Shown here in pieces: positions 34,602-64,000 of a stretch of 64,000 nucleotides of DNA. Where the stretch lies: positions 39,582,383-39,646,382 of the forward strand of contig OZ024879.1 of assembly GCA_964017185.1 (NCBI GenBank). The letters run 5' to 3'. The first letter of the stretch is position 1. The number at the start of each line of letters is the position of its first letter. The notes beneath the pieces were generated by a model. That model searched no databases. It was not told the DNA's origin and saw only the letters and a program-made list of their open reading frames with translations. The position numbers were made by a program, and so were the translations under genes. This stretch comes from Rugalucina vietnamica. Its lineage: Eukaryota; Mollusca; Bivalvia; Lucinida; Lucinidae.

Positions 34602-34878
34602 CATTACGAAAACTTGCCCATGCAATATACAGAGATTTTTAGCTTTAAAAATTGAAAATTTTCAGCTGAAACATTTTGATATTTTTCTTACTTTTGCTCA
34701 AAACATAGATTGTGGGTACACGTTAGAACCGCCTCGCCGAGGCGGTTCTAACGAGTACCCACAATCTATGTTTTGGAGCAAAAATAAGAAAAATAGGTCT
34801 ACCCCTGCATACCCCAGTTTTTTTATATAAAAGTGGGGTTTAAGGGGGTAGACGCTTCACGGACATGTTTTCCTGATG
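34602..34878 (+). mobile_element. MITE1 copy with 11-bp target duplication
   Basis: CATTACGAAAACTTGCCCAT at the left and CATGTTTTCCTGATG at the right. Both sides carry a perfect 11-bp direct repeat TGTAACAATTA (34591-34601 and 34879-34889). This fixes the ends of the family. A duplication of 9-11 bp with TIRs is typical of Mutator-like elements, so MITE1 may be a short MULE derivative (inference). The hairpin core with AACCGCCTCGCCGAGGCGGTT is intact. Confidence 0.92.
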
Positions 34879-46541: not shown

Positions 46542-47107
46542 GGTTGACGTTGCGCACCTCTTCCTCACTATAATCCAATTTCATAGCGCATGTCATCTTA
46601 TTTCTCAACACACAAGCACTTGCATACACAACAATTTCATCACACTTGCACCCACATACCTAAAAAATCCTGTGGCGATGGGCGAGTGGCGAAGCAGCAG
46701 GTGTAGGACACACTGGGAGCTGTAGTTGCAGACCTGCACACAGGCGGCTCAGTTCTAATGGTCGCTTTCTGTGAGGAGAAGCAGTAAGCAGAATTCGGCA
46801 GTCGGCTGAGCGACTGAGCAGACCTATTTAGGACCGCACTGCTCACACCCGTAGCATGGGGAAGGGGCTAGAAAAGGTGCCCTAAACAATTGCCTGCTTC
46901 AAACCCCCTGGCTGGTTAACCGCGATCAGCGGGGATCCCCTTAAGCGGTCGAAATACAAAGAAAAAAGCTAGAGTAATTCCCTTACGGATTGGCGCATGG
47001 AATGTGCGTACTTTAATGGACAATGCTGGGTCAGATAGACCACAGCGTAGAACGGCCCTTGTGGGCAGAGAACTTGGGAGGTAAACTATGATATACAGAT
47101 AGCTGCA

Positions 47108-50100
47108 TTGAGTGAGACTCGGTTCGCAGATGTTGGGGAGATCAAAGAAGTTGGTGCTGGATACACCTTCTTCTGGATTGGACGCAAAAGTGAAGAGAGG
47201 CGTGAAGCAGGAGTTGGCTTTGCCATCAAAACAGAACTTGTTGGTAAGCTGTCAGGATTGCCAAAAGGCATTAATGACCGTCTAATGACATTGAGACTTC
47301 CTCTGTCAGGCAATAAACATGCAACTATTGTCAGTGCTTATGCACCCACAATGACCAATCCAGATGAGGTCAAGGACAAGTTTTATGATGACCTAGACAA
47401 TGTTATTTCTGCAACACCCCGCACAGACAAGCTTATCCTTCTTGGCGACTTTAATGCCAGAGTGGGTACAGACCACCAGACCTGGGAAGGAGTTATAGGT
47501 CCAGAAGGGGTTGGAAAGTGCAACAGCAATGGTCTCTTGCTTCTCATGAAGTGTGCTGAACATGACCTTCTAATCACCAACACAGTCTTCCGTCTACCTA
47601 ATAGGAACAAAACATCCTGGATGCATCCCCGTTCCAAACACTGGCATCTCATAGACTATGTCATAGTGCGGAGAACAGACAGGCAGGATGTTAAAGTGAC
47701 AAAGACTATGTTTGGTGCAGACTGCTGGACAGATCATAGACTGGTTGTCAGCAAACTTAACCTAAGAATACAGCCTGCGAGGCGACCTCAAGGCAAGAAA
47801 GCTGCTAAGAGACTGGATGTCTCAAAGCTGAATAAAGACAGCATGAGACAAGATTTCTTAACAGACATTTGCAACCAACTGGATGCAATGAATCTCAGTT
47901 CAGAGGACCCCGAAGAAAACTGGACAGTTTTCCATAAAACAGTTCTTTCTTCAGCTGCAAGCACCTTAGGCCATCCATCTCGCAAACATCAAGACTGGTT
48001 TGATGAGAATGATGACGAAATTCAGAGGCTTCTTGAAGAAAAGCACCGATTGCACAAGGCACATCAAGATGATACTAGCTCAGTATCAAAGAAAGCAGCC
48101 TACAGCAACATTTGTAAGACAGTCCAGACCAAGCTTAGGGACATGCAAGATTCCTGGCTGAGGAAGAAAACAGAAGAAATTCAGTCTTTTGCGGATAGAA
48201 AGGACATGAAGAAATTTCATGATGCACTGAAAACCATTTATGGTCCAAAGAGTTCTGGAGCCACCACATTGCTCAGTGCAGATGGAAACACTCTTCTCAC
48301 AGATAAAGAAGCTATCTTGGAAAGGTGGGCAGAACACTTTAATAGTGTGCTTAATCGACCATCAAGCATCAATGAGGATGCAATCGACAGACTTCCACAG
48401 TTAGAGTGCAATGTTCTGTTAGATGAATTTCCTACCGTTATGGAAACAAGAAAAGCAGTTCAACAACTATCATCTGGCAAAGCCCCAGGTGCAGATGCAA
48501 TTCCTGCCGAAGTTTACAAGGCTGGGGGGCTACCCATGGCAGAGAAACTGACAGAGTTGTTTCACTGTATGTGGAGAAAGGAGGCTATCCCACAAGAATT
48601 TAAGGATGCATCCATAATCCACCTATACAAGCGGAAAGGAAATCCTCAAGTCTGTGACAATCACAGAGGCATCTCTCTCCTATCAATTGCTGGGAAGATA
48701 CTTGCAAAAATTCTGTTGAATCGTCTGAATGTTCATCTTGATCAGACGGGACTTATCCCAGAAAGTCAATGTGGATTCAGAAAAGACAGAGGGACAATAG
48801 ACATGATATTCACAGCAAGACAGCTTCAGGAGAAATGCCAAGAACAGAATGTAGATCTATACATGACGTTTGTTGACCTCACCAAAGCTTTTGACACTGT
48901 TAGTCGTGATGGACTCTGGAAAATCATGGCCAAGTTTGGCTGTCCACCCAGATTCATAGCAATGGTGCGGCAGTTTCATGATGGCATGCAGGCACGTGTG
49001 CAAAATGATGGAGAGTTCTCTGAACCATTTGAAGTAACAAATGGGGTCAAACAAGGCTGTGTTCTGGCACCAACACTGTTCAGCATGATGTTTTCTGCCA
49101 TGCTTATGGATGCTTTTCAGGACAGTGACACTGGTTTTCCAATCAGGTACCGTTTTGATGGCAACATATTCAACCTCAGAAGGTTGCAAGCCAAAACTAA
49201 GGTCCAGACTGATGTGCTAGATGAGCTCCTCTATGCAGATGATATGGATAAGAATGCCAGCACAGAGGCAAAAATGCAAAGAGCCATGGATCAAGTCTCA
49301 CAGTCATGTGATAACTATGATCTCACAATCAGCACAAAAAAGACAGAGGTTGTACACCAACCAGCGCCCGGAAAGCCATATAATGAACCAACCATCACTG
49401 TGAATGGGCAAAAACTGAAAGTTGTTGACAAGTTCACCTACCTGGGAAGCACTCTCTCCAGAGCAGTGCATATTGATGATGAGATCACTGCCAGAATTGC
49501 AAAGGCTAGTGTGGCATTCGGACGACTCCGTGCAAATGTCTGGGAGCGAAATGGAATCAAGCTTGACACCAAGCTGAAAGTCTACAAGGCTGTGGTACTG
49601 CCAACCCTCTTGTATGCATGTGAGACCTGGACAGTATACCAACGCCATGCAAAGAGACTTAACCATTTCCACTTAAGCTGTTTGAGAAAGTTGTTAAAAA
49701 TCAAGTGGCAGGACAAGATTCCAGACACAGAGGTCCTGACGAAAGCAGGGATGCAAAGCATGCATACAGTCTTAAAGCTAGCACAGCTAAGATGGACTGG
49801 CCATGTTATAAGAATGCCTGATGCGCGACTTCCAAAGAAAGTTTTCTATGGAGAACTACAGGAGGGAAAGCGCTCTCAAGGTGGCCAGAAGAAACGCTAC
49901 AAAGACACCCTCAAAGCCTCTCTGAAGGATTTCGAAATACCAATGGGGTCCTGGGAACAGACTGCACAGGAGCGATCAAAGTGGCGAGGTCTCATCAACA
50001 AAGGAGCAGCTCTTTATGAAAAGAAGAGAATCTGTGAAGCTGAAAGAAAGCGAAGAGAGCGCAAAGCCAAAACAAATGTGCCACCATCAGACTCTATGAC

Positions 50101-50200
50101 ATTGACTTGCTCTACTTGCAACCGACAGTTTAGAGCCAGAATTGGCCTAGTCAGCCATCAAAGAACTCACCAACACACATCAGCACTATTCAAGAAATAA
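47108..50200 (+). CDS. LINE endonuclease/reverse transcriptase with C-terminal C2H2 finger
   Basis: A 1030-codon open frame. It holds most of an APE-type endonuclease (SETRFADVG at the start, SAYAPTMTN, LLGDFNARVG, LIDYVIVRR, TDHRLVV), a linker, and a reverse transcriptase with FVDLTKAFDTVSRDGLW (motif A), GVKQGCVLAPTLFSMMF (motif B) and catalytic YADD near residue 709. After the thumb region come a basic KRRERKAK stretch and a C2H2-like finger at the very end (CSTCNRQF...HQRTHQH). The first catalytic Asn (WNVRTL) lies upstream of a 5-bp frameshift, so the endonuclease is probably inactive while the RT looks intact. There is no RNase H domain. The ATG at 47108 is unlikely to be the native start. 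Confidence 0.9.
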   Translation: MSETRFADVGEIKEVGAGYTFFWIGRKSEERREAGVGFAIKTELVGKLSGLPKGINDRLMTLRLPLSGNKHATIVSAYAPTMTNPDEVKDKFYDDLDNVISATPRTDKLILLGDFNARVGTDHQTWEGVIGPEGVGKCNSNGLLLLMKCAEHDLLITNTVFRLPNRNKTSWMHPRSKHWHLIDYVIVRRTDRQDVKVTKTMFGADCWTDHRLVVSKLNLRIQPARRPQGKKAAKRLDVSKLNKDSMRQDFLTDICNQLDAMNLSSEDPEENWTVFHKTVLSSAASTLGHPSRKHQDWFDENDDEIQRLLEEKHRLHKAHQDDTSSVSKKAAYSNICKTVQTKLRDMQDSWLRKKTEEIQSFADRKDMKKFHDALKTIYGPKSSGATTLLSADGNTLLTDKEAILERWAEHFNSVLNRPSSINEDAIDRLPQLECNVLLDEFPTVMETRKAVQQLSSGKAPGADAIPAEVYKAGGLPMAEKLTELFHCMWRKEAIPQEFKDASIIHLYKRKGNPQVCDNHRGISLLSIAGKILAKILLNRLNVHLDQTGLIPESQCGFRKDRGTIDMIFTARQLQEKCQEQNVDLYMTFVDLTKAFDTVSRDGLWKIMAKFGCPPRFIAMVRQFHDGMQARVQNDGEFSEPFEVTNGVKQGCVLAPTLFSMMFSAMLMDAFQDSDTGFPIRYRFDGNIFNLRRLQAKTKVQTDVLDELLYADDMDKNASTEAKMQRAMDQVSQSCDNYDLTISTKKTEVVHQPAPGKPYNEPTITVNGQKLKVVDKFTYLGSTLSRAVHIDDEITARIAKASVAFGRLRANVWERNGIKLDTKLKVYKAVVLPTLLYACETWTVYQRHAKRLNHFHLSCLRKLLKIKWQDKIPDTEVLTKAGMQSMHTVLKLAQLRWTGHVIRMPDARLPKKVFYGELQEGKRSQGGQKKRYKDTLKASLKDFEIPMGSWEQTAQERSKWRGLINKGAALYEKKRICEAERKRRERKAKTNVPPSDSMTLTCSTCNRQFRARIGLVSHQRTHQHTSALFKK

Positions 50201-50309
50201 TGATGGTCTTTCTCATTAGTGAGAGACGAACTATCACATGTTTATGCACATTTTTCGAATGGCCGTGTGTCGATCGTTGCCTACCAAAATCTTCAGCATG
50301 CCAAATATT

Positions 50310-50550
50310 TGTTCGATTGTAAAAATATTTCCTAGTGAAATCTCTAATTTTTGCAGCTGTAAAAATCTCTGTATATCGCATGGGCAAGTTTTCGTAATGT
50401 GTAAGGCTCTAGCGTGTACCCACAATCTATGTTTTGAGCAAAAAAAAAAAAAAAAAATAATAATAAATAAATAAATAAAATAAATAAATAAATAATTTTT
50501 GCAACCATAAAAATCTCTGTATATCACACGGACAAGTTTTCGTAATGTGT
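50310..50550 (-). mobile_element. MITE1 fragments in reverse, with A/T-rich microsatellite
   Basis: Two inverted left ends of MITE1 lie in tandem (GCATGGGCAAGTTTTCGTAATGTG ending near 50402, and CACGGACAAGTTTTCGTAATGTG ending near 50549), each preceded by AAAAATCTCTGTATATC. Between them are ACCCACAATCTATGTTTTGAGC and an A17 run with (AATA)n. Confidence 0.7.
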
Positions 50551-50929
50551 ACTGTTAGCCACCCTCCCCCAAATGTGAACTGACAAGCATTTTGTACTAA
50601 AGTTGTACCACCCGTCCCATGCAACATTATACAACTATTTCATACCTTCCTTTGTAACAGTCAAAACTATCACCCCGAGGTGCTGTGGATGACCCGATGA
50701 ACTGTTGCCCGAGGCCGAATATTAACAATATTTGCAAGTATGGTGAGGCAGTATAAAAGCATGCAAAGCATGTCACATGACTGGGAAACAGTAAAAACTG
50801 TTGCATATGAAACAGTTCATCACATGACATGAAACAGTTCATTGAAACTGGTTTAAACTATCTTTAACTGAAATTGTTTAAAAACAGCATGAAATGTTTT
50901 ATTTCTCTTTATATAGTATGTTGGGTAAT

Positions 50930-51175
50930 AAATAAATAATTTTTTAAGTTGTAAAAATATAAAATTTTTAGTAGATTTTTTTTTCTTATTTTTGCTCAAA
51001 ACATCGATTGTGGGTACACGGTAGAACCGCCTGGCCGAGGCGGTTCTAACGAGTACCCACAATCTATGTTTTGGGGCTAAAATAAGAAACATAGGTATAC
51101 CGCTGCATACCTCGGTTTTACTATATGAAAGTGAGGTGTACGGGGTATGCATTACACGGACGTGTTTTCCTAATG
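50930..51175 (+). mobile_element. MITE1 copy just upstream of the DUF4326 first coding exon
   Basis: Central hairpin (CATCGATTGTGGGTACACGG, AACCGCCTGGCCGAGGCGGTT) and right end ACGGACGTGTTTTCCTAATG. The left end is degraded. The right end lies 40 bp before the likely splice acceptor at 51215 and 62 bp before the ATG of the gene. The box reads TATATGAAAG here. Confidence 0.8.
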
Positions 51176-51215
51176 TTCAGGTCCATACTGGGTGGATTTT
51201 CGATATTTATTTCAG

Positions 51216-51374
51216 GTTTTGGAAGCATAATCGAGAAATGGCATCCAACAATCCATGGAATAAACCCTCGGCCTCGCCTCAGACACAGGGTCATCCTGTG
51301 ACGTCATCATTACGTGACATCATGAATGAACAGACTAAAGAAGAGACAGAAAAAGAGCCACCAATCAGTTCAAG
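51216..51374 (+). CDS. DUF4326 gene, first coding exon
   Basis: Acceptor GATATTTATTTCAG ends at 51215, the ATG is at 51238 and the donor AG|GTAACA follows 51374. The tryptophan motif and SSLRDIMNEQ lie here. The acceptor and phase-2 donor match the layout of the RIOK3 first coding exon. Confidence 0.75.
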
Positions 51375-53102
51375 GTAACATACACATGCATTACAAAAAA
51401 TTGCCCATGTAATATACATAGAATTTTTTCAGCATTAAAAAGTGAAAATTTCATTGGACTTTTTTTTTTATATTTTCAATATCATTACTCAAAACATTGA
51501 TTGTGGTTATACGTCAGAACCGCCTCGCCGAGTACCCACAATCAATGTTTTGGAGCAAAAATAAGAAAAATATGTCTACCCCTGCATACCCCAGTTTTAC
51601 TATATAAAAGGTATTCGTTGCATGTTTTCTGATGCATGGACAAACTTGAAAATGGATATCCGGCCGCGGGCGTTTTGGGTTCAATATACAGCCATAAAAA
51701 TAGCCATGGAATCAATTATTTTATTGTTTATGTATGAGCCTTAACATGCTTTACTATGATCAAAATTTTATGATCATACAGACTTGGTCTCGACGTTATA
51801 TGCAACTCTTCTGTGTCTTAATGCTCATTTGCCATTTTAACATAATATTATGTGGGCACAATGATGGATGGATGTGCCCTCCTGCCTTTCCTTACGAAAA
51901 TTTTGTCATGCAGTATACAGAGAAATGTTTAGGTGTAAAAATTGGAAATTCCATTGAAAAAAAATTGATTTTAAACGTTTATCTCATAACTTTTATTGTG
52001 GGTACACATTAACAAGTACCCACAATCTATGTTTTGGGTCAAAAATAAGAAAAATAGGAATACAACAGTTTTAGTATATAAAAGTGGGTTTCAAGGGGGT
52101 ATACATATACATTACAACGACATGTTATCGTTAGGAACTTATTCCCCTCGGTTTTCAATCAACCATGTTGTTATTATGATTATTATTATTATCATCATCA
52201 TCATCTCATTATTAGTATTTTGATTTTGTTTATAGGGAGGCATACTGGAGTGGTAGATATGACTTTTGTGCCGGAATTAACCCATCTAAACCATACACTT
52301 TCAAAAGTAAGTAAATTAGTTGCTTTTGTTTCATTTACAGAAAAAAAGACACTGAAAAATTGAAAAAAATACCGTCACTCAAAAAGGGGACCGGAGAAAA
52401 CGTAAGATGAGCCTCAGACTAAACAATGTACGCTTTATACCCTAACCACACAAGTCAGGCTGCTTACATGTATATCTGTCAAGTTATTGCAGGCATGGTT
52501 CGATACTCTCAAGATGAATCTTCAGGTTCCTCATTGATAAGCAGGGTGTGATTCCCTGGTCGTTAAAAACAACTAGGCAGTTTTAGCGATGCATATCCTT
52601 GAATGTATTCTTTAGATCAATCCCAGTGTGTTGGGCTTTAGTGGTTGTACATGTAGCACGACTTAATTGTTGTACAAAACTTAAGAAATGAATAAATTCT
52701 TCTTTTATTTGAGGCGAACAGGCAAAGTCGTCCAAAGAACCTGTCGCAAAGGTGGTCAATGTGAGAGCCCGACATCTGAGGGAAAATGGCTACAAAGATC
52801 TTGTTGAATGGACCAAAGATCCGAATAATGTCTACATAGGTCGGGATATGACCCATTACGTGCCGGGGGCGGTCGGTAGCATGTGGCACAACCCGTTCAA
52901 AAGCAAACAAATGGGACGGGACGAGAGTGTGCGGCGATTTAAGGAACATATCAAAACTAACAAACAGATACAGAGTAATGGCCGCACCTTGTTGGACTCC
53001 TTGCACGAGTTGAAAGGGAAGACTCTGGGTTGCTGGTGTCACCCGGAGCGTTGCCATGGACACGCGCTTGTGGAGCTGATAGAGGAATATGTTCACGATT
53101 GA
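51216..53102 (+). CDS. DUF4326-domain protein with RIOK3-like N-terminal exon, three exons
   Basis: Joining 51238-51374, 52236-52306 and 52714-53102 gives exactly 199 codons (198 residues plus TGA) with matching phases 2, 1 and 0. Every junction has GT-AG ends: AG|GTAACA, TATAG|GG, A|GTAAGT, TTGAG|GC. Residues 1-46 contain NNPWNK and SSLRDIMNEQ, like the RIOK3 first exon. Residues 47-80 are a linker with YWSGRYDF. From about residue 88 the domain reads VVNVRARHLRENGY, VYIGRDMTHYVPG, HNPFK and GCWCHPERCHG (175-185). This is the pattern I know for DUF4326 (Pfam), whose Cys/His cluster suggests metal binding; its function is unknown. An upstream non-coding exon is likely because an acceptor (TTTATTTCAG) precedes the ATG. 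Possibly a gene chimera. Confidence 0.8.
51389..51634 (+). mobile_element. MITE1 copy in DUF4326 intron 1
   Basis: CATTACAAAAAATTGCCCATG at the left, starting 15 bp after the splice donor, and CATGTTTTCTGATG at the right. The hairpin tip is shortened on one side (AACCGCCTCGCCGAGTACCC). Confidence 0.8.
51890..52134 (+). mobile_element. MITE1 copy in DUF4326 intron 1, hairpin tip lost
   Basis: CTTACGAAAATTTTGTCATGC at the left. The core is collapsed to TTGTGGGTACACATTAACAAGTACCCACAATC, with the GC-rich tip gone; TATATAAAAG is retained. The right end is degraded. Confidence 0.75.
52236..52306 (+). CDS. DUF4326 gene, middle exon
   Basis: 71 bp between TTTATAG and GTAAGT. Encodes EAYWSGRYDFCAGINPSKP and a short tail. 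It fits only because both phases agree with the flanking exons. Confidence 0.7.
52714..53102 (+). CDS. DUF4326 gene, last exon
   Basis: Acceptor TTTATTTGAG ends at 52713. The exon holds the whole DUF4326 domain. It is visibly richer in G and C than the surrounding AT-rich DNA. Confidence 0.85.
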
Positions 53103-53233
53103 CGATCTACAAGAATGGAATAATACTTATTTGTTCTATTGTTCTGTTTTAAGTTGCAGAGGGCCATATGTTAAAAAGTTATTTTATTTGCTAAATATGT
53201 CATCCTCTTAAAATAATATTTATTTTAATTTTT

Positions 53234-53290
53234 TATATTATTATTATTATTGTTATTATTATTATTGCTATTATTATTATTATTGTTATG

Positions 53291-53338
<48 letters not shown>

Positions 53339-53339
53339 T
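53234..53339. repeat. (ATT)n microsatellite
   Basis: Imperfect (TTA)n with G interruptions, pure from about 53289 to 53336. It lies 130 bp after the DUF4326 stop codon. A shorter ATT/ATC tract is at 52174-52212 in intron 1. Confidence 0.9.
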
Positions 53340-53451
53340 AATTTGATGTTGATAAAGTGATAAAGGCTCTAAGTTACAAAGAAAATATTTACATGTAGTT
53401 TTTTTTGTATCCATGCAGTCAGATCAGCTGATCGCTCTTTTTATTTGCCAT

Positions 53452-53689
53452 ATGAGCCGCCTCATGAGAAAACCAACAATCTGCATATGCGAAAACAAAG
53501 ACGCAGATCAGCTTCGCGGTAACCGCGAAGCTGATCAGCGCCTTTGTTTTCGCTACTCGGATAGTACAATTCCTCTTCTACTTAAATCCAAAGTTTCAAG
53601 CTTCTAGCCTGCTTCTGTGCTTGTACATGCCGGTTTGTGTCGGACCTGTTCGGAAACCACATAGTTGGTTTTTCCACGAGGTGGCTCAT
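53452..53689 (+). mobile_element. MITE2 copy
   Basis: ATGAGCCGCCTCATGAGAAAACC and, at the other end, GGTTTTTCCACGAGGTGGCTCAT. The inner hairpin is perfect around CGCAGATCAGCTTCGCGGTAACCGCGAAGC. One of the best-preserved copies. Confidence 0.88.
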
Positions 53690-53778
53690 ATGCTAGACTG
53701 TCATATTTTGTTCTCGATTAGTAGCATTAAGAAAACATACCTACATGTATATAATATCCAGTAATTTCAAATTAGTAG

Positions 53779-54204
53779 CTCAAAAATCGAAAATTTTCAG
53801 CGGAAAAATTTTGATATTATCTCTGATTTTTTTGCTAAAAATATAGATTGTGGGTACACGGTATAACCGCCTAGACGAGTACCCACAATCTATGTTTTGG
53901 AATAAAAAGGGAGCATGGTGACGTAGTGGTAGAGCGTCGGACTCCGAATCGAAAGGTCCTGGGTTCGATCCCCACAAGTGGCACCGTATTGTGTCCTTGA
54001 GCAAGACACATTAACTCTCTACAATACTGGTTTAACCCTGAAACCGTTGGCTCCGCCCCCACTTGACTGAAAAATTGTTAACTGGGACGTTAGGCCTTAA
54101 TACAAACAAACTTACAAAAAAATAAGAAAAATAGGTTTTCCCCTTGTAAACTCTCACAGTTTTACTACATAAAAGTGGGGTTTAAAGGGAGTATATATTG
54201 ATGA
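53779..54204 (+). mobile_element. MITE1 copy split by a SINE
   Basis: The left part runs to CACAATCTATGTTTTGGAATAAAAA (53908). The right part resumes at AAAAAATAAGAAAAATAGG (54115) and continues through TACATAAAAGTGGGGTTTAAAGG. The hairpin tip is reduced to AACCGCCTAGACGAGTACCC. Confidence 0.82.
53909..54115 (+). mobile_element. tRNA-headed SINE (type 2) nested in MITE1
   Basis: GGGAGCATGGTGACGTAGTGGTAGAGCG head, B box GGTTCGATCCC at 53962-53972, GTGTCCTTGAGCAAGACACAT, GGTTTAACCCTGAAACCGTTGGC and a tail GGGACGTTAGGCC...ACAAACAAAC. It is flanked by A5 runs from the MITE. Best copy of this SINE type in the window. Confidence 0.85.
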
Positions 54205-54880
54205 TGGCTTATTGTCATGCCTGTGTCTTATCTGGGGTACATGTATCTATAGCTTTAATCCCAATCAAACACTGCCTACTGAAAAAAGAGGACAATCGCT
54301 TCTTTTTAGAACTGCGCGTTCTGTATTTCAGTGTCTGTATTACTTACTGTTCAATATGTTCAAAGCATTCTGTGATATAATTGTTAATTTGTATGTTGTT
54401 TTAATATTCTTGCTTAAATTTGAATATGTGATTTGTTTAGGTTTGAGTGTTGTATTTAGTCGTGTTCGTCGAAATAAAAGCTTGTTCTCTTTCAGTTACT
54501 TTCTTGTTATACATGTATATCACTTTCCGTAAGGGTAAGACGAGCAATGAAAACGTTACATTTTCCTTTGCGTCTGTATTATTCGTTCGCTGGAAACGGT
54601 GTCAACTTCCCGACATGACTGAACATGTTGACTTGGACATAAAGCCATAACCAAACCAAACCACCCACCTGATTATATGTTCGAGCGCATGCATTTTTGT
54701 TGTCATAACATCCTAATTTTTGGCAGTTGGGTAGAAGTCCCATAAAATAGAGGTTACGTCCCGACATGACCATATATGTTGACTGCGACTTAAGACAGCA
54801 ATTCAAACAAAGATAAACAAACAAAATCACTCCAAGCTCAATTACTACTTGAATATATACTTTCTGAGTTTTAAATAACC
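54205..54880. other. Non-coding stretch
   Basis: No gene supported. 54680-54830 is a SINE-tail-like fragment (CATAACATCCTAATTTTTGGCAG, GTCCCGACATGACCATATATGTTGACTG, ACAAACAAAATC). Overlapping open frames at 54198-54650 have no recognisable domain. Confidence 0.45.
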
Positions 54881-55270
54881 GGGACGGCACCGTGCTATTC
54901 CGACACAAACCGTAATTTCACCTAGACTCCAAGATCTTAAATCGGGACCTACCGGCTTTATAATGGTTTGCCACGGTGTACCACGGTTCATCCCGGTTCA
55001 TCGCCACGGTTCTCGCTAGTTGCTGTTATTTTCAATACCGGAAAGCACCGGGGCATAACGGTGGTGCGACCAACAGCTACAGGGACGCCACCGTAGACAA
55101 CCGGGGTAACATCGGGCTTTACCGTAGTAAAACTGTTGCACACCGGTCTGCACCGTGACGACACCTTTATAGAAACGGAAGGACGACCGGTTCAACACCG
55201 GGGCGAGGTAACACCGTTACCGTGAAATGTAGTAGACGTTCCCCGGTTTATCACGGTAAACCGGTCTGTC
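54880..55270. repeat. CCGGT/CACGGT-rich block
   Basis: About 390 bp markedly richer in G+C than its surroundings and packed with short motifs ACCGG, CCGGT, CACGGT, ACCGT and CGGGG in both orientations. There is no single clear period and no persuasive open frame. Unclassified. Confidence 0.55.
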
Positions 55271-55499
55271 TCCACTGGGACAAACTGGGATTATAACAAT
55301 GATAGTGAGAACGGGTCTTCATCATTAATACAAACGTTGTCCTAATGAGAATGGTGTTTAATGAGTTCCCCTTTTCTTTAGTATGTCACTGCATGATTCA
55401 TGCACCAAGATGACATGTCCGTGAAATAACTCTTTAATATGTACATACGTACAGTAATATGTACAGTAAGATTAGAACTGGGATATACAGGGAGTATGC

Positions 55500-55560
55500 A
55501 TTTTTCTTATTCTTGATCCGAAACATAGATTGTGGGTACTCGTTAGGGCCACCTCGCATT
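55500..55560 (+). mobile_element. MITE1 fragment
   Basis: TTCTTATTCTTGATCCGAAACATAGATTGTGGGTACTCG, the left arm of the central hairpin only. A MITE2 fragment (GGTCCGACACAAACCGGTTTGTAC...GAAGCTTGAAATTTCGG) lies at 55785-55855. Confidence 0.6.
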
Positions 55561-55864
55561 TGTGGACAATAGTGTATCAATCGCGTTGCTGTTCTCTTTA
55601 ACTGCTCAACAGCAAAGCAGGTGACAAAGTTTCTCGGCGTTCAACTTTCTCAAACTGCTTTGACGTTGTGCACGGCGAAATCTGGCCATCGACTGCTTGT
55701 CGATTCCAAGATTCTCGACGTCGAGATCTGTCAGAGTTTCTGTTCCCCTCATATCGAGCTTCGTTTCATCTTCGGAGTTCCTTACAGGTCCGACACAAAC
55801 CGGTTTGTACAGTCTCTGAAAAAGGCTAAAAGCTTGAAATTTCGGATTTGCCGAATGGATTTTC

Positions 55865-56065
55865 CCATCATTATCAATTAGGTGAGTCCACATTCATTTT
55901 TAGATACGTCAGGAGTGATTTTTAAATTTTATTCATTTTTTCGATGAAGATTCTCTAAGCAAACAGAATAACCCCAGATGGGACGCCGCAGAACGCGGCG
56001 TCACATCTAGGGCTATTCTGTTTGCCTATGTCCCATAAAAGGGACGCCAGGCTCAAATGAGTAAA
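55865..56065 (+). mobile_element. Palindromic element P3 copy
   Basis: GTGAGTCCACATTCATTTTTAG, hairpin AGCAAACAGAATAACCCCAGATG...CATCTAGGGCTATTCTGTTTGC with the tip GACGCCGCAGAACGCGGCGTC, then CCCATAAAAGGGACGCCAGGC. Confidence 0.75.
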
Positions 56066-57104
56066 GGCTTGGCAGCTCTATTTGATTATCGATTACATAC
56101 CGACATGCTATGCATGTAACGGTCATGTTCTATCAATTTTGAGTTTTTAAAGACGAACGACATTGCTTCAACTTCACAAGCTTCTAAAATGATACAAGAA
56201 TATCGAAATTGCAACTTTTAAAAGTCTAAAAGCTTGCCTCTGATAATGGTTTTTCGCAAAAAAAAAAAAAAAAAAAAAAGAAAATGCATGGAGGACGACA
56301 AAAAAATATTTTCATGTCAAAATCTTGATCTTAGTTTGTCCTAATAGGACCTGCAAATATTTTGGAAATCGGCGAACAAATAAAGTTTTTATGGCCAAAA
56401 TGAATTTTGCATAGGGATTTTGCATTGGCAAGGGAGATCGAAAATCGTGAAATTGCATATTTTTCGAGATTTTTTACTTGATCATGAAGATTCTGTCTTA
56501 GGTATGTCATTTGTGTCAATTTATAATAATTTTGAGCAACCATGATTAATAGAATTTAAAATGTTTGCGGGAAAATATTTACCTCCCTTCCATGAGATTT
56601 TTGTACAGGAAATCCCTATTCAAAAATGTTTTTGACCAGAACTTTTTTATTTGTCAACCAATTTAAAATTTTTACTGCACACTTTGCGACAAACTCAAGA
56701 AAATATTTTTTCTACACTTGAACTGTTGTGAAATACGCGGCTGCGAAAAACCATTATCACACACTACGAAACAGCGGGACAAACAGACCGTTTAATTTTG
56801 AAACATATATACGTCCAAAAAAAAAAAACATGTTCACCAGTTGCAATGATCTCTTTATTCTATACATGTATATGCAATGAACACCAATATTTGGATCCGA
56901 GGTTTCAAATGTAGGAAAAAACAACAACTGAAAAGTCACAGGAAAAATGTCACAGCTTTGGGAAGGAAAAAGGTCACAGGAAACTGTCATATATAAAGTA
57001 TTACACTTTTACACTTTTTCTTTTCTCTACTTCTGGATAGGAATGGATATTATTGTTTTTATTATTATCATTACTATCACTTTATGATTTATTTGGAGTG
57101 ATGT
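56066..57104. other. Non-coding stretch
   Basis: No gene. A20 run near 56258-56279. The phrase ATAATGGTTTTTCGC (56242) recurs inverted as GCGAAAAACCATTAT (56743), and further complementary AT-rich pieces lie between, so 56240-56757 may be a degraded foldback element. Confidence 0.4.
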
Positions 57105-57290
57105 TTGAACATATTTAATGTCCCACTTAACAAATGTTCGGTCATATCGGTACAGAGCCTATGCTTCCTGGGTACCTAACCAGTTCTTTTGTATGGTCAA
57201 GAAGGACACTGCATGGCAATGGTTTGTTTCAGACCGAGTTCTCTGGCATCATGGCCTGAAACTCTACAACTGAGTCACCATGCTCCTCAC
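57105..57290 (-). mobile_element. tRNA-headed SINE (type 2), reverse, diverged
   Basis: AATGTCCCACTTAACAAATGTTCGGTCATATCGG, AGAGCCTATGCTTCCTGGGT, and a degraded head complementary to GGAGCATGGTGACTCAGTTGTAGAG. Confidence 0.55.
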
Positions 57291-57571
57291 ATTTAGTGGA
57301 TTCTCATCCATGCTATGTTTGAGTTAAATATTTTCCATTTCAAGGACAGGGTTCGATTCTGATTATGACATTTCCACATCATCTTCAAAATATCATCGCT
57401 TACTTTCATTCCTTACTTTTAACATGAAAATCATGTGTTACTATATTTATGTACAGATATATGCATTTTCCTGTGACTTTTTTTCGTAACTTTTTTCCTG
57501 CGACTTTTTTTCCTGCGACTTTTTCCCGTCCACCGAGGTTTCAGCAAGATTGAATCAGAACTAAAATATTT

Positions 57572-57960
57572 AAATCAAATCAAATATCTTTATTGGTTTT
57601 AAAATCCAGAAACAGGATTGTTACCAACTACATACAAACATACATAATACTTAACATACAAACAGGAAACGATTTAAATACGCATCACCAGTATCTCTGA
57701 TTAACTTAATACAACATTTTATGGTATCTATGACAAAATTAATGACTGGAATGGTATCTATGACCACAATACTAAAATGGTATCTATGATCTTAATAATA
57801 TACAACTATGACTAAGATGATAAAAGGTATCTATGACCAACTTAATACAACATTTTATGTTTTATCTATTACCAAATTAACGACTGGGATGGTATCTATG
57901 ACCTTAATACTGGAATGGTATCTATGACCTTAACAATATATAAAACTTTAAATATTTAAG
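57572..57960 (-). repeat. LINE 3' end and TGGTATCTATGACC tandem units
   Basis: On the minus strand the start AAATCAAATCAAATATCTTTATT reads as an AATAAAGATATTTGATTTGATTT tail, the type of 3' end seen in some CR1/L2-group LINEs. The adjoining 57720-57930 holds at least six irregular units with GGTATCTATGACC. No coding sequence remains. Confidence 0.5.
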
Positions 57961-58024
57961 AGTATCTTGTATTTTTTGCAATTAATGAAGAACTAAACGA
58001 AAACAAGAGATAGAGAGGATATTT

Positions 58025-58165
58025 GCTTTTTTGAGGCGAACACCAAATATATTTCATCGAGTGAGTTGAAAACATCAGAATTTTCACGAGTGCGCAGCAC
58101 GAGTGAAAATTTTTATGTTTTCAACTCACGAGATGAAATATATTTGGTATTCACCGAAAAAAAGC
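58025..58165. mobile_element. Short near-perfect palindrome
   Basis: About 141 bp. The arms GCTTTTTTGAGGCGAACACCAAATATATTTCATC and their complement enclose TTTTCACGAGTGCGCAGCACGAGTGAAAA. It would form a hairpin over its whole length. Probable MITE, non-coding. Confidence 0.75.
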
Positions 58166-59340
58166 AAATTTTCTTTTTATTTTATACAATACACGGACAT
58201 TTTTCAATTTACAAGGCAGGCGGTGAAAATGCAAAAACCAAACATTTTTGAAAACACAAATAATTTTGGTACCACGTGCACATTGTTCCTTAAGTTCTAA
58301 CTAAGAAAATGGATACCCACACTTTATGTTTTCGTTCATAAATAACGGAGTTATAGGCGTTTGAATTTCTGAAGTGAGACACATTTAATGACGTCAAGTA
58401 AATGGAAATGTCAGAAGTAATCCAAAATCTACAGTGAAGATATAGGCTGATATCAGTCACTAGTGACTTTTGATATCAATGAGATTTGATATCAGTGAAA
58501 TTTCATATCAATGAAAATACCAATTTTATCAAGTTTTGATAATTATACATGTACATTGGTTTTCACTGTAAAGTATAAAATAAATCATCATTCCGTTTCT
58601 TGTTGGATATGCTAGTTAGAGGGTTTTATTGGGAAATTTGCCCAACACAAATGTTGTCGCCCCTCAGTGGTCACAGGCTACGTTCGTGCTCCGGCCATCA
58701 GTCTAATACCGGCTTATAGTAAAAAGCACCTGCTGATCGAGATTACTGTGGTTCCCTGTGTCGAGCGTGAGTTAAATGCTGTAGAGCGGAAACCAGTCAG
58801 CTGTCAAAAACTATTACACAACATTTGGACACAACATTGCGAAATCTTTCTAAAAATATCAGTTGCTGGGTACATATTTTGCTGAATTATTGACAGAAAA
58901 TATATACAGTGATACTTGTTAAAGGTTTACACTGAAATTGCTAAAAAGGAATCACAATTAAGATAGAAAAATACTGGAAGAGGTATAATATCGGTAAAAC
59001 AAGTATTAGATTAAAAAAAAAAAAAAAGTAACATGTAATTGAATGTATCTCTACTACATATTTTCTTTCTTGTCACATACTTGTAAGACAGTACCTAGCT
59101 GTTAGAATGAAAATTTAACGATGTTCACTGCCAATGAAAAGGTATTCATTTTTGCTTCCGTAGGATAGGGTTTATTTTTTCAAGCTACAGGCATCTGAAC
59201 GAGACTTGCTAAACAACAAATGTTAGCAGCGAATATCATTAAGGCTTCTGCTAGCATGTTATCATATGTGAAATGTCAACTTGAGTGTTGGCAATATATA
59301 AGGTTCTCTGTAGGCTTTTGGCGTTACTTTTAAATGATTG
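58166..59340. other. Non-coding stretch
   Basis: No gene supported. Near 58450-58530 the phrase TGATATCARTGARATTT recurs three times. A14 run near 59012-59027. Confidence 0.45.
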
Positions 59341-59344
59341 AAGA

Positions 59345-59575
59345 CTGTTTGGTTTGTTTATGGCTTTACATCCCAGTCAACAATTTTTCAGTCATAGAAG
59401 CCACTGCTTCTGGGTTTTAACCAGAAATAGAGGAAGCTGATTAAAGTGTGTTGCTCAAGGACACTACAAAGTGGAGATTCAGAATCAGGAGGTACATGTC
59501 TGTATTGAATGCAGGCATCTCCCTCTGGAGTCCTGTTTTCTACTACCAAGCCACCTCTTGGAGACTGATTGTTAA
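59345..59575 (-). mobile_element. tRNA-headed SINE (type 2), reverse
   Basis: TATGGCTTTACATCCCAGTCAACAATTTTTCAGTCAT tail, CTTCTGGGTTTTAACCAG, GTGTTGCTCAAGGACAC, and head traces to ACCAAGCCACC. Confidence 0.6.
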
Positions 59576-59673
59576 TTTTGTTGACCAGGGGCAAGTTGTT
59601 CAAAACTTCGTTAAATTAACACTGTTGTTAAGCCCTCACTTTGTTAACTATATATCGACTTCAAAAGCAAAAT

Positions 59674-59767
59674 AATACACTGTTATTTCTTTGTTGACAA
59701 AATGTGAGAATCCTAAATACTATGCAAAGGATTCTCACATTTTATCAACAAAAAATAACAGTGTATT
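59674..59767. repeat. Inverted repeat (94 bp)
   Basis: AATACACTGTTATTTCTTTGTTGACAAAATGTGAGAATCC faces its near complement ending AACAGTGTATT, with a loop of about 13 bp. Confidence 0.75.
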
Positions 59768-59943
59768 TGTAATATTCATGTCATTATAACGCTATCTTTG
59801 GGGTCGATAAATGCAAACTGTTTGTTATAATGAAGCTTCTTACTACGAACATATAGCAAAATAATCAATTTGGGAGCCATGACATGGCCATGTTGTATTG
59901 AAAACTGCATTATGATTATTAGGAGGTTCAAGTGTACATGTAC

Positions 59944-60318
59944 TTAGGCCATCCTTAATAAATAGTTTGTTTGCTGTCACCCGACCCATGGTTTTAGGAT
60001 TGGGTCGGTCGGTAGGCTTTTTTTTTTTTTTTTGGACAGAACTGAAATATAATATTTTTGTTTGACTTTTACAGAGGATAGGTTTAAATTTCTGTTCAGA
60101 ATCATATAGGCAGTTACTCTTCATACTGTAAGACTGCACAATATTGCATTCAGACTATTATTATAATCAAAAAATAAGTAATTCAGAGACTGAAATTTAA
60201 GATATTCAAATAAAAAAAAAATCTTCTTTGAGAATGTCAATAAAATTTTTTGGGTAGGGGCAATTTTGGTGGGTCGGTCGGGTGACGGCAAACAGAGAAT
60301 TTTTTAAGGTTGGCCTTA
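59944..60318. mobile_element. MITE with about 45-bp TIRs (CACCCGACC element)
   Basis: TTAGGCCATCCTTAATAAATAGTTTG and TGTCACCCGACCC at the left are inverted at the right as GGTCGGGTGACGGCAAACAGAG and TTTTTTAAGGTTGGCCTTA. An internal A/T tract is at 60018-60033. Non-coding, about 375 bp. Confidence 0.8.
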
Positions 60319-60430
60319 GCTGCATGTTTCTGCACCTTTTCTCAAAACTATTGATAATGTTTCAAACTTGGTATTGGTTATATCCAGTGTTAAAACATTA
60401 CGCCATATTTGAATTTAAGTTCTCGCTTGA

Positions 60431-60710
60431 CATTACGAAAACACGCCCATGCAATATACAGAAATTTTTAAAGTTGTAAAAAAACAAAGTTTTTCAGTAG
60501 AAAATTTTGATAATTTTCTTCTTTTTGCTCCTCAATATAGATTGTGGGTACACTTTAGAACCGCCTCTGCGAGGTGGTTCTAACGAGTACCCACAATCTA
60601 TGTTTTGGAGCAAAAATAAGAAAAATAGATATACCCATGCATACCCCAGTTTCACTATATAAAAGTGGGGTATAAGGGGGTATATATTTCACGGACATGT
60701 TTCCTTGATG
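60431..60710 (+). mobile_element. MITE1 copy abutting the RIOK3 first coding exon
   Basis: CATTACGAAAACACGCCCAT at the left; ACGGACATGTTTCCTTGATG at the right. Hairpin with AACCGCCTCTGCGAGGTGGTT at the tip. Its right end is 14 bp before the splice acceptor at 60724 and 38 bp before the ATG. A TATATAAAAG box lies at 60655-60664. Confidence 0.9.
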
Positions 60711-60724
60711 ATATTTCTTTTCAG

Positions 60725-60927
60725 GTTAAAACAAATATAATAATAAGCATGGACGGAACGGTAGCAGAACCTAGTAAAGACACAACCAGCCCATGGAAAA
60801 GATCAACTGGTGGCTCACCTTGGGGAAAGACTAGCCCAGTACAGCCTTGTTCCCTTGAAGATGTTATGAGTGAACAGCTAGCTACAGATCTACAGGCAGA
60901 AGAAGAAAATTCTGTTCTGAATGAAAG
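60725..60927 (+). CDS. RIOK3: RIOK3 first coding exon
   Basis: Acceptor GATATTTCTTTTCAG ends at 60724. The ATG at 60749 is chosen because it starts the frame giving SPWKRSTGGSPWGK and the SLEDVMSEQ motif. Donor AG|GTATTT, phase 2. Confidence 0.9.
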
Positions 60928-63650
60928 GTATTTCCTCAACATCATGTGACTTTGTCATATCTCCCTTTAAAGGTTATTCACTTCGGCTAGAAATGATAAC
61001 CTTATGGTTCCTGGATAAAATAATTTAAACAGTAGAGCTTGTAAATGACCTACATTATGCCTGCATCATTACAGAAATTGCTACAGGCTTAAAAAATTCA
61101 GATCTTAAGTAGATTTGGTAGTTCTATTTGCATGTACATGTATTACAACAAAGTCAAGCATTTGTGTGCCCTGTCCTGCTTTGTAGTGAAGCAGATACAC
61201 ATGATTTTATTTATATGTGACACTATATAGCAGCATATGAACAGCATCTTGAATATGACATGTAGCTGATGACACAAAATACAAGAAAAATGTAGATCTA
61301 TGCATAAAGCCGTTTTTTCATAAATTCAGTTTATTTCTTCAATTTGTAGCAATGATGTTGAGCCTGAAATCCAAGATCTCATTGCGTCACTAGAAGCGGG
61401 AGCCAGCCCAGACCAAGATACCAGCAGTGATGTTGCCCTGGCCAGGATGTTACAGATGCAGTACGACAAGGAACATAACCAGCTGATTCAGGCACAAGAG
61501 AGAAAATTTAATGGCCCTGGTAAAGGTAGGCAGAGTTTGATAGAAATGAGCCACCTCGTGGGAAAACCAACAATGTGGTTTTCGAACAGGTCTGACACAA
61601 ACCCACCTATACCAGCACAGAAAAGAGCTAGAAGCTTGAAATTTCAGACTTAAGTAGAATAGGTATTGTACTATACAAGTAGCGAAAACAAAGGCGCTGA
61701 TCAGCTTCGCAGTTACTGCGAAGCTGATCAGCGCCTTTGTTTTCGCCTAGGCAGATTGTTGGTTTTCCCATGTAGTGGCTCAAATATTGATATGTATTAG
61801 TTATGCCACCATAAACATTGTTCTTGATTTTCAGCTCAGGTCTAACACAAAAGGGCTTGTCAAATATGGATAATTTTTAACAGATTCAGAAATTAGAATT
61901 CATCTTAGCCTATCTATAGCGTTCTAAGATTATTTAAAGCATTTTTAGTTGGTACTTCTCAAATGAATCGCCTCATGAGAAAACCGGATTTTTGTCTAAG
62001 CGAAAACAAAGGCGCAACTCAGCTTGGTACATGTAGTATGCTTACTCTTCTTTCTACGTCGGGAATTTACAGCCTCTAGCCATCTTCTGTGCTTGTACAG
62101 CTTGGTTTCTGTCAGACCTGGTCGAAACCCTGAAGATCGGTTTTCTTGCATTGCCGCTCAAATGGTCTTTCAGTTTCTGGCTTTGACATCAGTTATATAA
62201 ATATCTTTATTATAAATGGCTTGAGAGTTTCAATGTTGATTTAAGAAATAGAGTTATCAATTTATCTACTGCCTAAAATGGAAAATCAAAGGCCCTAAGA
62301 TCTGTGGCTAGATGCTAATCAGCAGCATGGCCATTGTTCAGCTTATGTTTGCTTTAATTTTTACAAAATTGTTGTATAAAATCTTTCTTGCTTAGTGACT
62401 CATACTTTCACATCACCATAATGCTGATTCACCTCATCCTCTTTATAACAGGATTCATTACAGCATGGTTTTGGATATATCACTGATCAGTGCTTGACTC
62501 CAAATGGTAATTTTAGAGTGAGTTTCCTATATATCTATACATTTCACTCTCATTATAACACAGACTGGATAGCTAGCTAGCACAGAAATTGGCTTGCACC
62601 CCAGCAATTGTGTTATAAAGAGGTTGTGGTGTACATTGTATTTTCAGTATCTGTCTCATTTGAAAATTACAAGTCCCTCCACCCTGCATTCAGAGATGAT
62701 GATGACTATCAAGAGCAAGATTACGATATAGAGGAACAGAAATCTCCGTGGGAAGAGGACGCTGCCCCCGACTTTAACAAACATGGCTACTCGGGCAAAG
62801 GTACATTGTAGTTTTGCACAAGTAAAACTACCATTACGAAAATATGCCCATGAGATATACCAAGACTTTTTTCAGAAGAAAAGAAATGAAAACTTTATCA
62901 GTAAAATTTTGATTTTTTCAATAGTTTGGCTCAAAACATACATTGTGGGTACACGTTAGAACCGCCTCCCACAATGTATGTTTTGGATCAGAAATAAGGA
63001 AAATATACCTCTGCAAATCCCAGTTTTTCTATATAAAAGTGTGGTTTAAGGGGGTATACATTTCACAAACATGTTTTCCTGATGAAAATGAGTACTTTAA
63101 AAAAGCAATTTACATAACACTACTGTTTGGAGGCACAGTAAGATCTGTAGAAAGAAGACACTGACCCAGATTTTAACAAACTGGTTACTCAGGTATAGTG
63201 TGCCATGTTATTATAAATGGATGTTCTCGATAAATTTACAAGTAAGAATAAAATAAAATTGGAAAATAGGAAATGATATGCAGAAGATTATAATAATGAG
63301 GAATATTGAATGCCGAGGCAATTCTAAGGTGTACCCACAATCTAAAACAGGGAGAAAAAAAGTAATGTCACAGTGCATGCAAAGTTCTGTCTTGTGATTC
63401 AACTCAAGGATGTGCCATTGGATATTTTTCTTCTTCAGGTAAAAACATAACTACCAAGCACGATGCTGTGATCTGTGGGAGGAAAAATGCCTCCAAGATG
63501 ATGGAATTTCCTCCGGAGTTTGTCTCTGGGGATGGGGAGGGGATGGACATGCAACTACCTAACCATGTGTATAACAAGTTGAAACGGCACTCTGAGAAGG
63601 AAAACAAAAGACAACAGAAACTGCATGAGAAGAAAGAACATTCTACTGCT
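60725..63650 (+). CDS. RIOK3: RIO kinase 3 (RIOK3), N-terminal part; gene continues past the window
   Basis: Four exons (60725-60927 with ATG at 60749, 61350-61525, 62648-62800, 63439-63650) join in phases 2, 1, 1, 0 to give 240 codons. The product matches the non-catalytic N-terminal half of animal RIOK3: PCSLEDVMSEQLATDLQAEEE, then DVALARMLQMQYDKE with KFNGPGK, then VSFENYKSLHP with an acidic stretch, then GKNITTKHDAVICGRKN, GDGEGMDMQLPNHVYN and the closing LHEKKEHSTA. Human RIOK3 is 519 residues, with the RIO kinase domain following this point. The family is an atypical Ser/Thr kinase group linked to 40S ribosome maturation and turnover and to antiviral signalling. A 5' non-coding exon is implied by the acceptor before the ATG. 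Introns carry MITE2 and MITE1 copies. Confidence 0.95.
61350..61525 (+). CDS. RIOK3: RIOK3 exon with LARMLQMQYDKE
   Basis: Acceptor TTCAATTTGTAG, donor AAAG|GTAGGC. Encodes an acidic start and the LxxMLQxxYDxE helix conserved in RIOK3. A MITE2 begins only 21 bp after this exon. Confidence 0.92.
61546..61783 (-). mobile_element. MITE2 copy in RIOK3 intron 2
   Basis: ATGAGCCACCTCGTGGGAAAACC at the left, GGTTTTCCCATGTAGTGGCTCA at the right. The inner hairpin of about 30 bp per arm (AACAAAGGCGCTGATCAGCTTCGCAG...) appears perfect. Confidence 0.88.
61963..62162 (+). mobile_element. MITE2 copy lacking the inner hairpin, RIOK3 intron 2
   Basis: ATGAATCGCCTCATGAGAAAACC start and TTTTCTTGCATTGCCGCTCAAAT end. 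One hairpin arm is lost after GCGAAAACAAAGGCGCAACTCAGC, so the copy is about 40 bp shorter. Confidence 0.78.
62648..62800 (+). CDS. RIOK3: RIOK3 exon with VSFENYKSLHP and acidic stretch
   Basis: Acceptor GTATTTTCAG, donor AAAG|GTACAT. Encodes FENYKSLHPAF, then DDDDYQEQDYDIEEQ and HGYSGK. Confidence 0.92.
62832..63084 (+). mobile_element. MITE1 copy in RIOK3 intron 3, hairpin tip partly lost
   Basis: CATTACGAAAATATGCCCATG at the left and CATGTTTTCCTGATG at the right. The core reads GTTAGAACCGCCTCCCACAATG, with most of the right inner arm deleted; TATATAAAAG is present. A further core fragment is at 63313-63350. Confidence 0.85.
63439..63650 (+). CDS. RIOK3: RIOK3 exon ending at HEKKEHSTA
   Basis: Acceptor TTCTTCTTCAG, donor GCT|GTAAGC. 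Encodes the conserved ITTKHD...CGRKN and GDGEGMDMQLPNHVYN segments that precede the kinase domain. The TGA reached by reading on is intronic. Confidence 0.92.
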
Positions 63651-63682
63651 GTAAGCTGACTTGAAATGCTAAATCAACTAAA

Positions 63683-63930
63683 GCCCTTGCCCCGAGGTTA
63701 TAAAACTTTTTTCAAGCTCAGCTCAGCTAAGCATGAAATTTCAACTGCTCATAAATGTTGAAATAGTAAAAAATTATGGAAAATTCAGGTACAAAACTCA
63801 GATACTAGTAATTTATCCTGCTCATAAATGTTAAAATGCCAACAATTGTTGGCATTTTAACATTTACGAGCAGGATAAATTTTAGTCTCAGCTGAGTTGA
63901 GCATGAAAAAAAGTTTATAACCTCAGGCCC
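63683..63930. mobile_element. Foldback element in RIOK3 intron 4
   Basis: GCCCTTGCCCCGAGGTTATAAAAC at the left and, inverted, GTTTATAACCTCAGGCCC at the right. The inner palindrome at 63811-63880 has 35-bp arms with one mismatch, centred on CCAACAATTGTTGG. Confidence 0.82.
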
Positions 63931-64000
63931 TTATCTCTCTGGCATGCAAAGTTCTGTCTTGTGATTCAAGTCAAGGACGTATCATTAAACATTTGCTAGA

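Follow-up and report, generated by a model that had tools for sequence, protein, structure and literature searches.

A 64,000-nucleotide window of contig OZ024879.1 from the lucinid bivalve Rugalucina vietnamica (assembly GCA_964017185.1, positions 39,582,383 to 39,646,382) contains a genuine-looking three-exon gene that appears to join a DUF4326 domain to an N-terminal motif of the RIOK3 type; the gene of RIOK3 itself, a kinase of ribosome quality control, follows downstream. We favour, with moderate confidence, an old local duplication: a copy of the first coding exon of RIOK3, by now much diverged, would have given the DUF4326 gene its N-terminal motif. The likeness of the two first coding exons is, on the comparisons made, confined to nine residues, SLxD[IV]MxEQ, and duplication of a promoter or leader is not supported.

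Both first coding exons lie on the plus strand, 9.5 kb apart in tandem with the DUF4326 gene upstream of RIOK3, and both end in phase 2 at an AG|GT donor (Table 1), as an earlier note on this DNA had described. The motifs given there were also found, although the residue pair preceding them is proline-tryptophan (PW) and not the reverse: the DUF4326 exon encodes PW...SLRDIMNEQ and the RIOK3 exon PW...SLEDVMSEQ. The start codons are close to the acceptors, with leaders of 22 and 24 nt instead of the 23-25 bp noted before. The exon peptides align at a score of 51, which was equalled or beaten by one of 5000 shuffles. Of the 1606 open reading frames (ORFs) in 81.6 kb, no other non-self frame matches RIOK3 exon 1 as well as the DUF4326 exon does (51, next 46), and the same holds for human RIOK3 (50, next 38). 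The RIOK3 assignment itself is based on the match of exon 60725-60927 to human RIO3 (8zdb_p; E 2.6e-5) on the further RIOK3 exons that follow within the window and past its end, and on a match to the RIO1 model (E 3.3e-11). A search with a 155-aa piece from the kinase side of RIOK3 (eight candidates scored) hit this locus and, at 43-50% identity, a second one (C5), which is probably another RIO kinase.

The 1.09-Gb genome was scanned for the motif with three patterns. With the strict one, S-[LF]-x-D-[IV]-M-x-E-[EQ], there were seven matches (control, two): two in recognisable coding exons, those of DUF4326 and RIOK3, and five in frames of 15-81 aa that lack PW. All 52 matches to a relaxed pattern (control, 27) were translated, and three had PW at most 35 residues upstream in frame: the two exons and L091, a hydrophobic frame of 47 aa that is probably no exon. 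A third pattern (IM-EE) produced three matches, none alike. One match, L086 (SLAEIMEEE), was rejected because it soon runs into a stop and lacks a convincing acceptor. The motif with PW was thus found in only two convincing coding exons, and since these are neighbours on one strand, a local origin is the best reading. Local exon duplication does occur here, as judged from two younger partial duplications of RIOK3 exon fragments in RIOK3 introns, one of 80 bp with 97.5% identity (64642-64721 and 64990-65069) and one of 220 bp with 92% (66805-67024 and 66974-67193; coordinates continued past the window end).

Table 1. Positions of exons, motifs and neighbouring MITE (miniature inverted-repeat transposable element) copies in the window
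Feature	Position	Strand	Remarks
DUF4326 gene, first coding exon	51216..51374	+	22-nt leader, ATG at 51238, encodes MASNNPWNKPSASPQTQGHPVTSSLRDIMNEQ..., phase-2 donor
SLRDIMNEQ motif (RIOK3-like) in DUF4326 gene exon 1	51307..51333	+	genome-wide pattern scans
DUF4326 gene, exon 2	52236..52306	+	71 nt, entered in phase 2 and left in phase 1; no domain recognised
DUF4326 gene, exon 3	52714..53102	+	entire DUF4326 domain including the C-W-C-H-P-E-R-C-H loop, then stop
RIOK3, first coding exon	60725..60927	+	24-nt leader, ATG at 60749, encodes ...PWGKTSPVQPCSLEDVMSEQLATDLQAEEE..., phase-2 donor
SLEDVMSEQ motif of RIOK3	60851..60877	+	genome-wide pattern scans
RIOK3, exon 2	61350..61525	+	encodes DTSSDVALARMLQMQYDKE...
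RIOK3, exon 3	62648..62800	+	
RIOK3, exon 4	63439..63650	+	
MITE copy	50938..51175	+	right end 40 bp before acceptor of DUF4326 gene exon 1
MITE copy	51389..51634	+	left end 14 bp after donor of DUF4326 gene exon 1; right end read by eye
MITE copy	60431..60711	+	right end 13 bp before acceptor of RIOK3 exon 1

Extent and meaning of the likeness

Several observations weigh against a duplication. The motif exon is as near to human RIOK3 (50) as to RIOK3 of its own genome (51), which gives no hint of recent copying at this locus. On either side of the nine residues the peptides are no more alike than shuffled ones: upstream of the motif the score is reached by 1640 of 10000 shuffles and downstream of it by 4793 of 10000. 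The LAxxLQxEEE stretch that follows the motif in RIOK3 is absent from the DUF4326 exon. No similarity was detected between the leaders (score reached by 506 of 1000 shuffles), between the 500-bp segments that precede the MITEs (242 of 1000) or between the non-MITE parts of intron 1 (495 of 1000). When RIOK3 was compared by tblastn with the preceding 10.4 kb, the motif exon ranked first, with an E value of only 1.8. Relaxed matches without PW also fall in a few long, possibly coding frames: SFTELMYEQ in 689 aa (L059), TFEEVMAEQ in 239 aa (L063) and TLTEIMEEE in 372 aa (L068). The patterns, moreover, were derived from the exon pair itself, which makes the argument from uniqueness post hoc, and the scans are blind to motifs split by an intron and to PW in a preceding exon.

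A rival reading is a short linear motif shared without common exon descent, either gained by the DUF4326 tail or older in it, with the vicinity of RIOK3 a coincidence. Such an origin agrees with a likeness limited to nine residues, with flank comparisons that mostly lack similarity, with the motif-like stretches in L059, L063 and L068 and with the motif codons, in which synonymous positions mostly differ (17 of 27 nt identical between the genes). A common docking class, which might take in other eukaryotic proteins such as IBTK, should recur, however, and none of the three scans gave another convincing coding case with PW; the sole second case lies 9.5 kb from RIOK3, a coincidence that genome size would place at about 1e-5 to 1e-4, judged post hoc. 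We regard a shared motif without common exon descent as distinctly less probable than duplication.

The alignment of the exons with 500 bp of flanks, proposed in the earlier note as a check, left the leaders and most of the flanks at shuffle level, the likeness stopping at the motif. An exon similarity no better than the short shared motif, which that note had named as one half of what would speak against its proposal, is what was found. Two comparisons gave lower counts, in tests whose shuffles, like those of all the DNA exon and flank comparisons, preserved single-base composition only. The score of the whole exons with leaders, whose alignment covers the end of the motif and the stretch after it, was reached by 20 of 1000 shuffles. 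When 28 nt from intron 1 of the DUF4326 gene were compared with 300 nt from intron 1 of RIOK3, the score was reached by one of 1000, through a 17-nt match at non-corresponding positions. The acceptors of the two exons are indeed alike, as had been pointed out (score 18; 9 of 1000 shuffles do as well), but this likeness was rejected as a sign of descent: the acceptor of RIOK3 exon 4 scores 18 too, and among 874 control YAG sites 8 score at least 18, as do 4 of the 148 that are pyrimidine-rich. No left-over RIOK3 exon was detected between the genes by tblastn with the predicted RIOK3, nothing scoring better than E 1.8, the motif exon itself; this query is valid to about residue 345, and the last exons were searched with the human sequence only.

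Since leaders and upstream regions are unlike, the likeness ends at the motif and the MITEs, 40 and 13 bp from the exons, are separate, the idea that the promoter and leader of RIOK3 were duplicated together with the motif exon loses its footing, while a local origin of the motif exon itself stands as the best reading of that proposal.

Searches beyond the exon pair returned little. RIOK3 exon 1 as a genome query matched only itself (one candidate scored), missing even the DUF4326 exon, and is too blunt to argue for absence. Among other proteins in the PDB the motif was seen in human RIO3 and in a 24-residue viral peptide (E 1.6). In the literature searched, neither the motif letters SLRDIM nor a paper naming DUF4326 and RIOK3 together was found; DUF4326 by itself is named in seven papers.

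The DUF4326 gene and its domain

Joined at their GT/AG borders, the segments 51238-51374, 52236-52306 and 52714-53102 read through as one 198-aa open frame, so the three-exon model of the earlier note holds as sequence; we infer its splicing and expression. Exons 2 and 3 contain no in-frame methionine before the domain. A limited scan of 50.2-52.2 kb gave six ATG candidates with a phase-2 donor, among which the 51216-51374 exon, with its internal ATG, reads best. For both reasons the gene seems to need this exon. The 198-aa protein matched only its own three exons in the genome (eight candidates scored).

The upstream exon could instead be, or be as well, an alternative first coding exon of RIOK3 that arose by first-exon duplication, the DUF4326 gene either sharing it or starting elsewhere. 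First-exon duplication yielding alternative promoters is a common pattern and counts in favour of this idea; the donor phase equals that of RIOK3 exon 1, and the frame stays open when the exon is joined to RIOK3 exon 2. However, the resulting RIOK3 isoform would lose the LAxxLQxEEE stretch, and the missing methionines and the ranking of the ATG candidates suggest that the DUF4326 gene needs the exon. We consider a RIOK3 alternative exon unlikely.

An error in the gene model, with exon 1 (and perhaps exon 2) foreign to the DUF4326 gene or the whole locus a decaying gene, is more improbable still. It might be suspected because exon 2 has only 71 nt and no recognisable domain, the acceptor of exon 3 reads TTTGAG and the model is one predicted from sequence; yet the three exons agree in frame and phase, and the domain has an intact conserved loop and no internal stop.

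The domain was recognised by Pfam PF14216 (DUF4326) at 79.9 bits (E 2.2e-22, model positions 4-82 of 82), above the curated 25-bit cut-off, with a protein query that carried one extra R outside the domain. From the genomic DNA the match scored 81.3 bits, and it is the sole DUF4326 match in the genome (four candidates scored). An alignment of 27 sequences shows conservation of the C-x-C-x4-C-H-G loop and of LHELKGKT, with the reservation that the relatives were chosen partly by loop-derived patterns, which biases the invariance of the loop. PF22751 (DUF488-N3a) matched at 26.2 bits (E 1e-5), just under its cut-off of 27. A fold search of the domain gave no deciding match; there was no DUF488 or rhodanese chain among the matches listed, which excludes nothing. 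The exon 3 protein is 46% identical to a Bacteroidia protein, a stand-alone homologue that starts at the domain start; relatives with the domain occur in 3 of 395 Bacteroidia genomes, the source genome of this homologue counted. In phages, PF14216 matched 1218 of 50,697 records at E <= 0.01, and the N-terminal 72 aa of the DUF4326 protein had no match in viral contigs. In the part of PMC9503650 that deals with it, DUF4326 is proposed to be a rhodanese-phosphatase processing ADP-ribose-phosphate and is discussed mainly in phages and large DNA viruses. The protein described here would presumably have an enzyme activity of this kind.

An apparently young non-LTR (long terminal repeat) retrotransposon (47051-50200, plus strand), with a 1049-aa open frame for endonuclease and reverse transcriptase, precedes the DUF4326 gene by about 1 kb.

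MITEs and other repeats

A MITE ending just upstream of each first coding exon had been counted among the traits shared by the exons. The adjacency is real, but the elements are, judging by their sequences, separate insertions of an abundant family. The two upstream copies share 81.1% identity, less than the 85-86% that either shows to the copies at 1152 and 34608; a tree of 11 copies is star-like, with weak support. A genome-wide search gave 9142 first-look candidates, 40 of which were scored. Among the matches listed are 41 full-length copies from elsewhere, 39 of them on other contigs, with 88-92% identity to the copy beside RIOK3, and one more with 81%; the DUF4326-side copy was not among the matches of this search. 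Given the non-sister identities, the tree and the nearer copies elsewhere, the MITEs were not shared by descent along with the exons. Co-duplication of a MITE and exon was rejected on these grounds and is strongly disfavoured.

MITE copies also lie near other exon edges: five of eight copies in both genes are at most 45 bp from one (16% expected, p 0.003), in a small, post hoc count. A split copy that lies 3' of the gene, at 53.7-54.2 kb, and the short fragments around 50.35-50.55 kb and 55.5 kb were not counted. The adjacency thus looks like a general bias of the element. This clustering spans 50938-65362 (past the window end) and includes a copy 5 bp after a RIOK3 exon.

Transport of the exon with its upstream MITE, by recombination between MITEs or by capture, might be suggested by the same-orientation copies that flank DUF4326 exon 1 (50938-51175 and 51389-51634) and by the MITE that ends 13 bp before RIOK3 exon 1. 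It is opposed by the identities and the edge bias given above. The two exons, in addition, are far more diverged than the MITEs beside them, so any exon duplication would have preceded MITE insertion. Transport by MITEs is highly improbable.

Further copies of this ~280-bp family lie at 1152-1421, 34608-34876 and 62832-63086, among others, and one sits between the two copies of the 80-bp RIOK3 exon duplication (64642-65069). The 11 longer copies compared are all in plus orientation. A TATA-like box, TATATAAAA (eight copies) or TATATGAAA (one copy), is present in 9 of the 11, mostly about 55 bp before the right end, and lies 93 bp before the ATG of RIOK3 and 116 bp before that of the DUF4326 gene. 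As far as these sequences go, the MITEs could act as promoters of both genes without an upstream exon.

A tRNA-like sequence (GTAGTGGTAGAGCG...GGTTCGATCCC), probably a short interspersed element (SINE), is located at 53909-53984 within a MITE copy; ARAGORN made no call there and called no tRNA in 50000-64000. A second repeat family forms a long, near-perfect hairpin (GCGAAAACAAAGGCGC...) and has copies about 80-89% alike at 53450-53692, 61537-61785, 67487-67735 and 69047-69284.

Possible origin and role, with known parallels

Taken together, we rank local duplication first, followed by a shared motif without common descent, an alternative RIOK3 exon and, last, MITE-borne transport and a gene-model error. 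The DUF4326 gene is single-copy and lies upstream of RIOK3 in tandem, its domain whole in one exon and starting as the bacterial homologue does. Under local duplication, an old tandem event would have placed the RIOK3 first coding exon into or upstream of this gene, only PW...SLxD[IV]MxEQ would have been kept, and the MITEs would have been inserted later and independently beside both exons. The N-terminal tail might serve as a short docking motif for the same partner as the RIOK3 N-terminus. We infer the direction and age of the duplication, as well as this docking role.

The LAxxLQxEEE stretch that follows the motif in RIOK3 is conserved between human and the present genome (0 of 10000 shuffles as high) and resembles an MIU ubiquitin-binding helix by its consensus. 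The relevant passage of PMC12224918 lists MIU for RIOK3, without a position, and passages of PMC13230545 and PMC11638074 place RIOK3 in 40S decay and name it as a binder of branched ubiquitin, respectively. By way of the tail, a small rhodanese/DUF488-like enzyme may be brought to the partner of RIOK3 without the ubiquitin-binding-like helix. That this animal DUF4326 enzyme acts as a side-kick of RIOK3 and docks on RIOK3's own partner, perhaps the 40S subunit in its ubiquitylated form, during ribosome decay or antiviral signalling, is a doubtful proposal. If the exon descends from RIOK3, SLxD[IV]MxEQ would be a portable docking signal, separated from the ubiquitin-binding part, and would point to a partner for an animal DUF4326 enzyme.

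The closest parallel is the RIOK3 N-terminus, which has PW followed by SLxDVMSEQ in a first coding exon with a phase-2 donor. It differs in continuing with LAxxLQxEEE, and the DUF4326 gene encodes no kinase. Formation of chimeric genes by local partial duplication and exon shuffling is a known route to new genes. As in such chimeras, a neighbouring gene would have supplied a 5' coding exon to another domain, although here divergence leaves just nine recognisable residues. With the DUF4326 proteins (PF14216) of phages, large DNA viruses, bacteria and Acanthamoeba, the protein shares the domain with its LHELKGKTLGCWC-P--CHG loop; in contrast to them, the gene described here has introns and a two-exon N-terminal extension, which the related Bacteroidia protein lacks.

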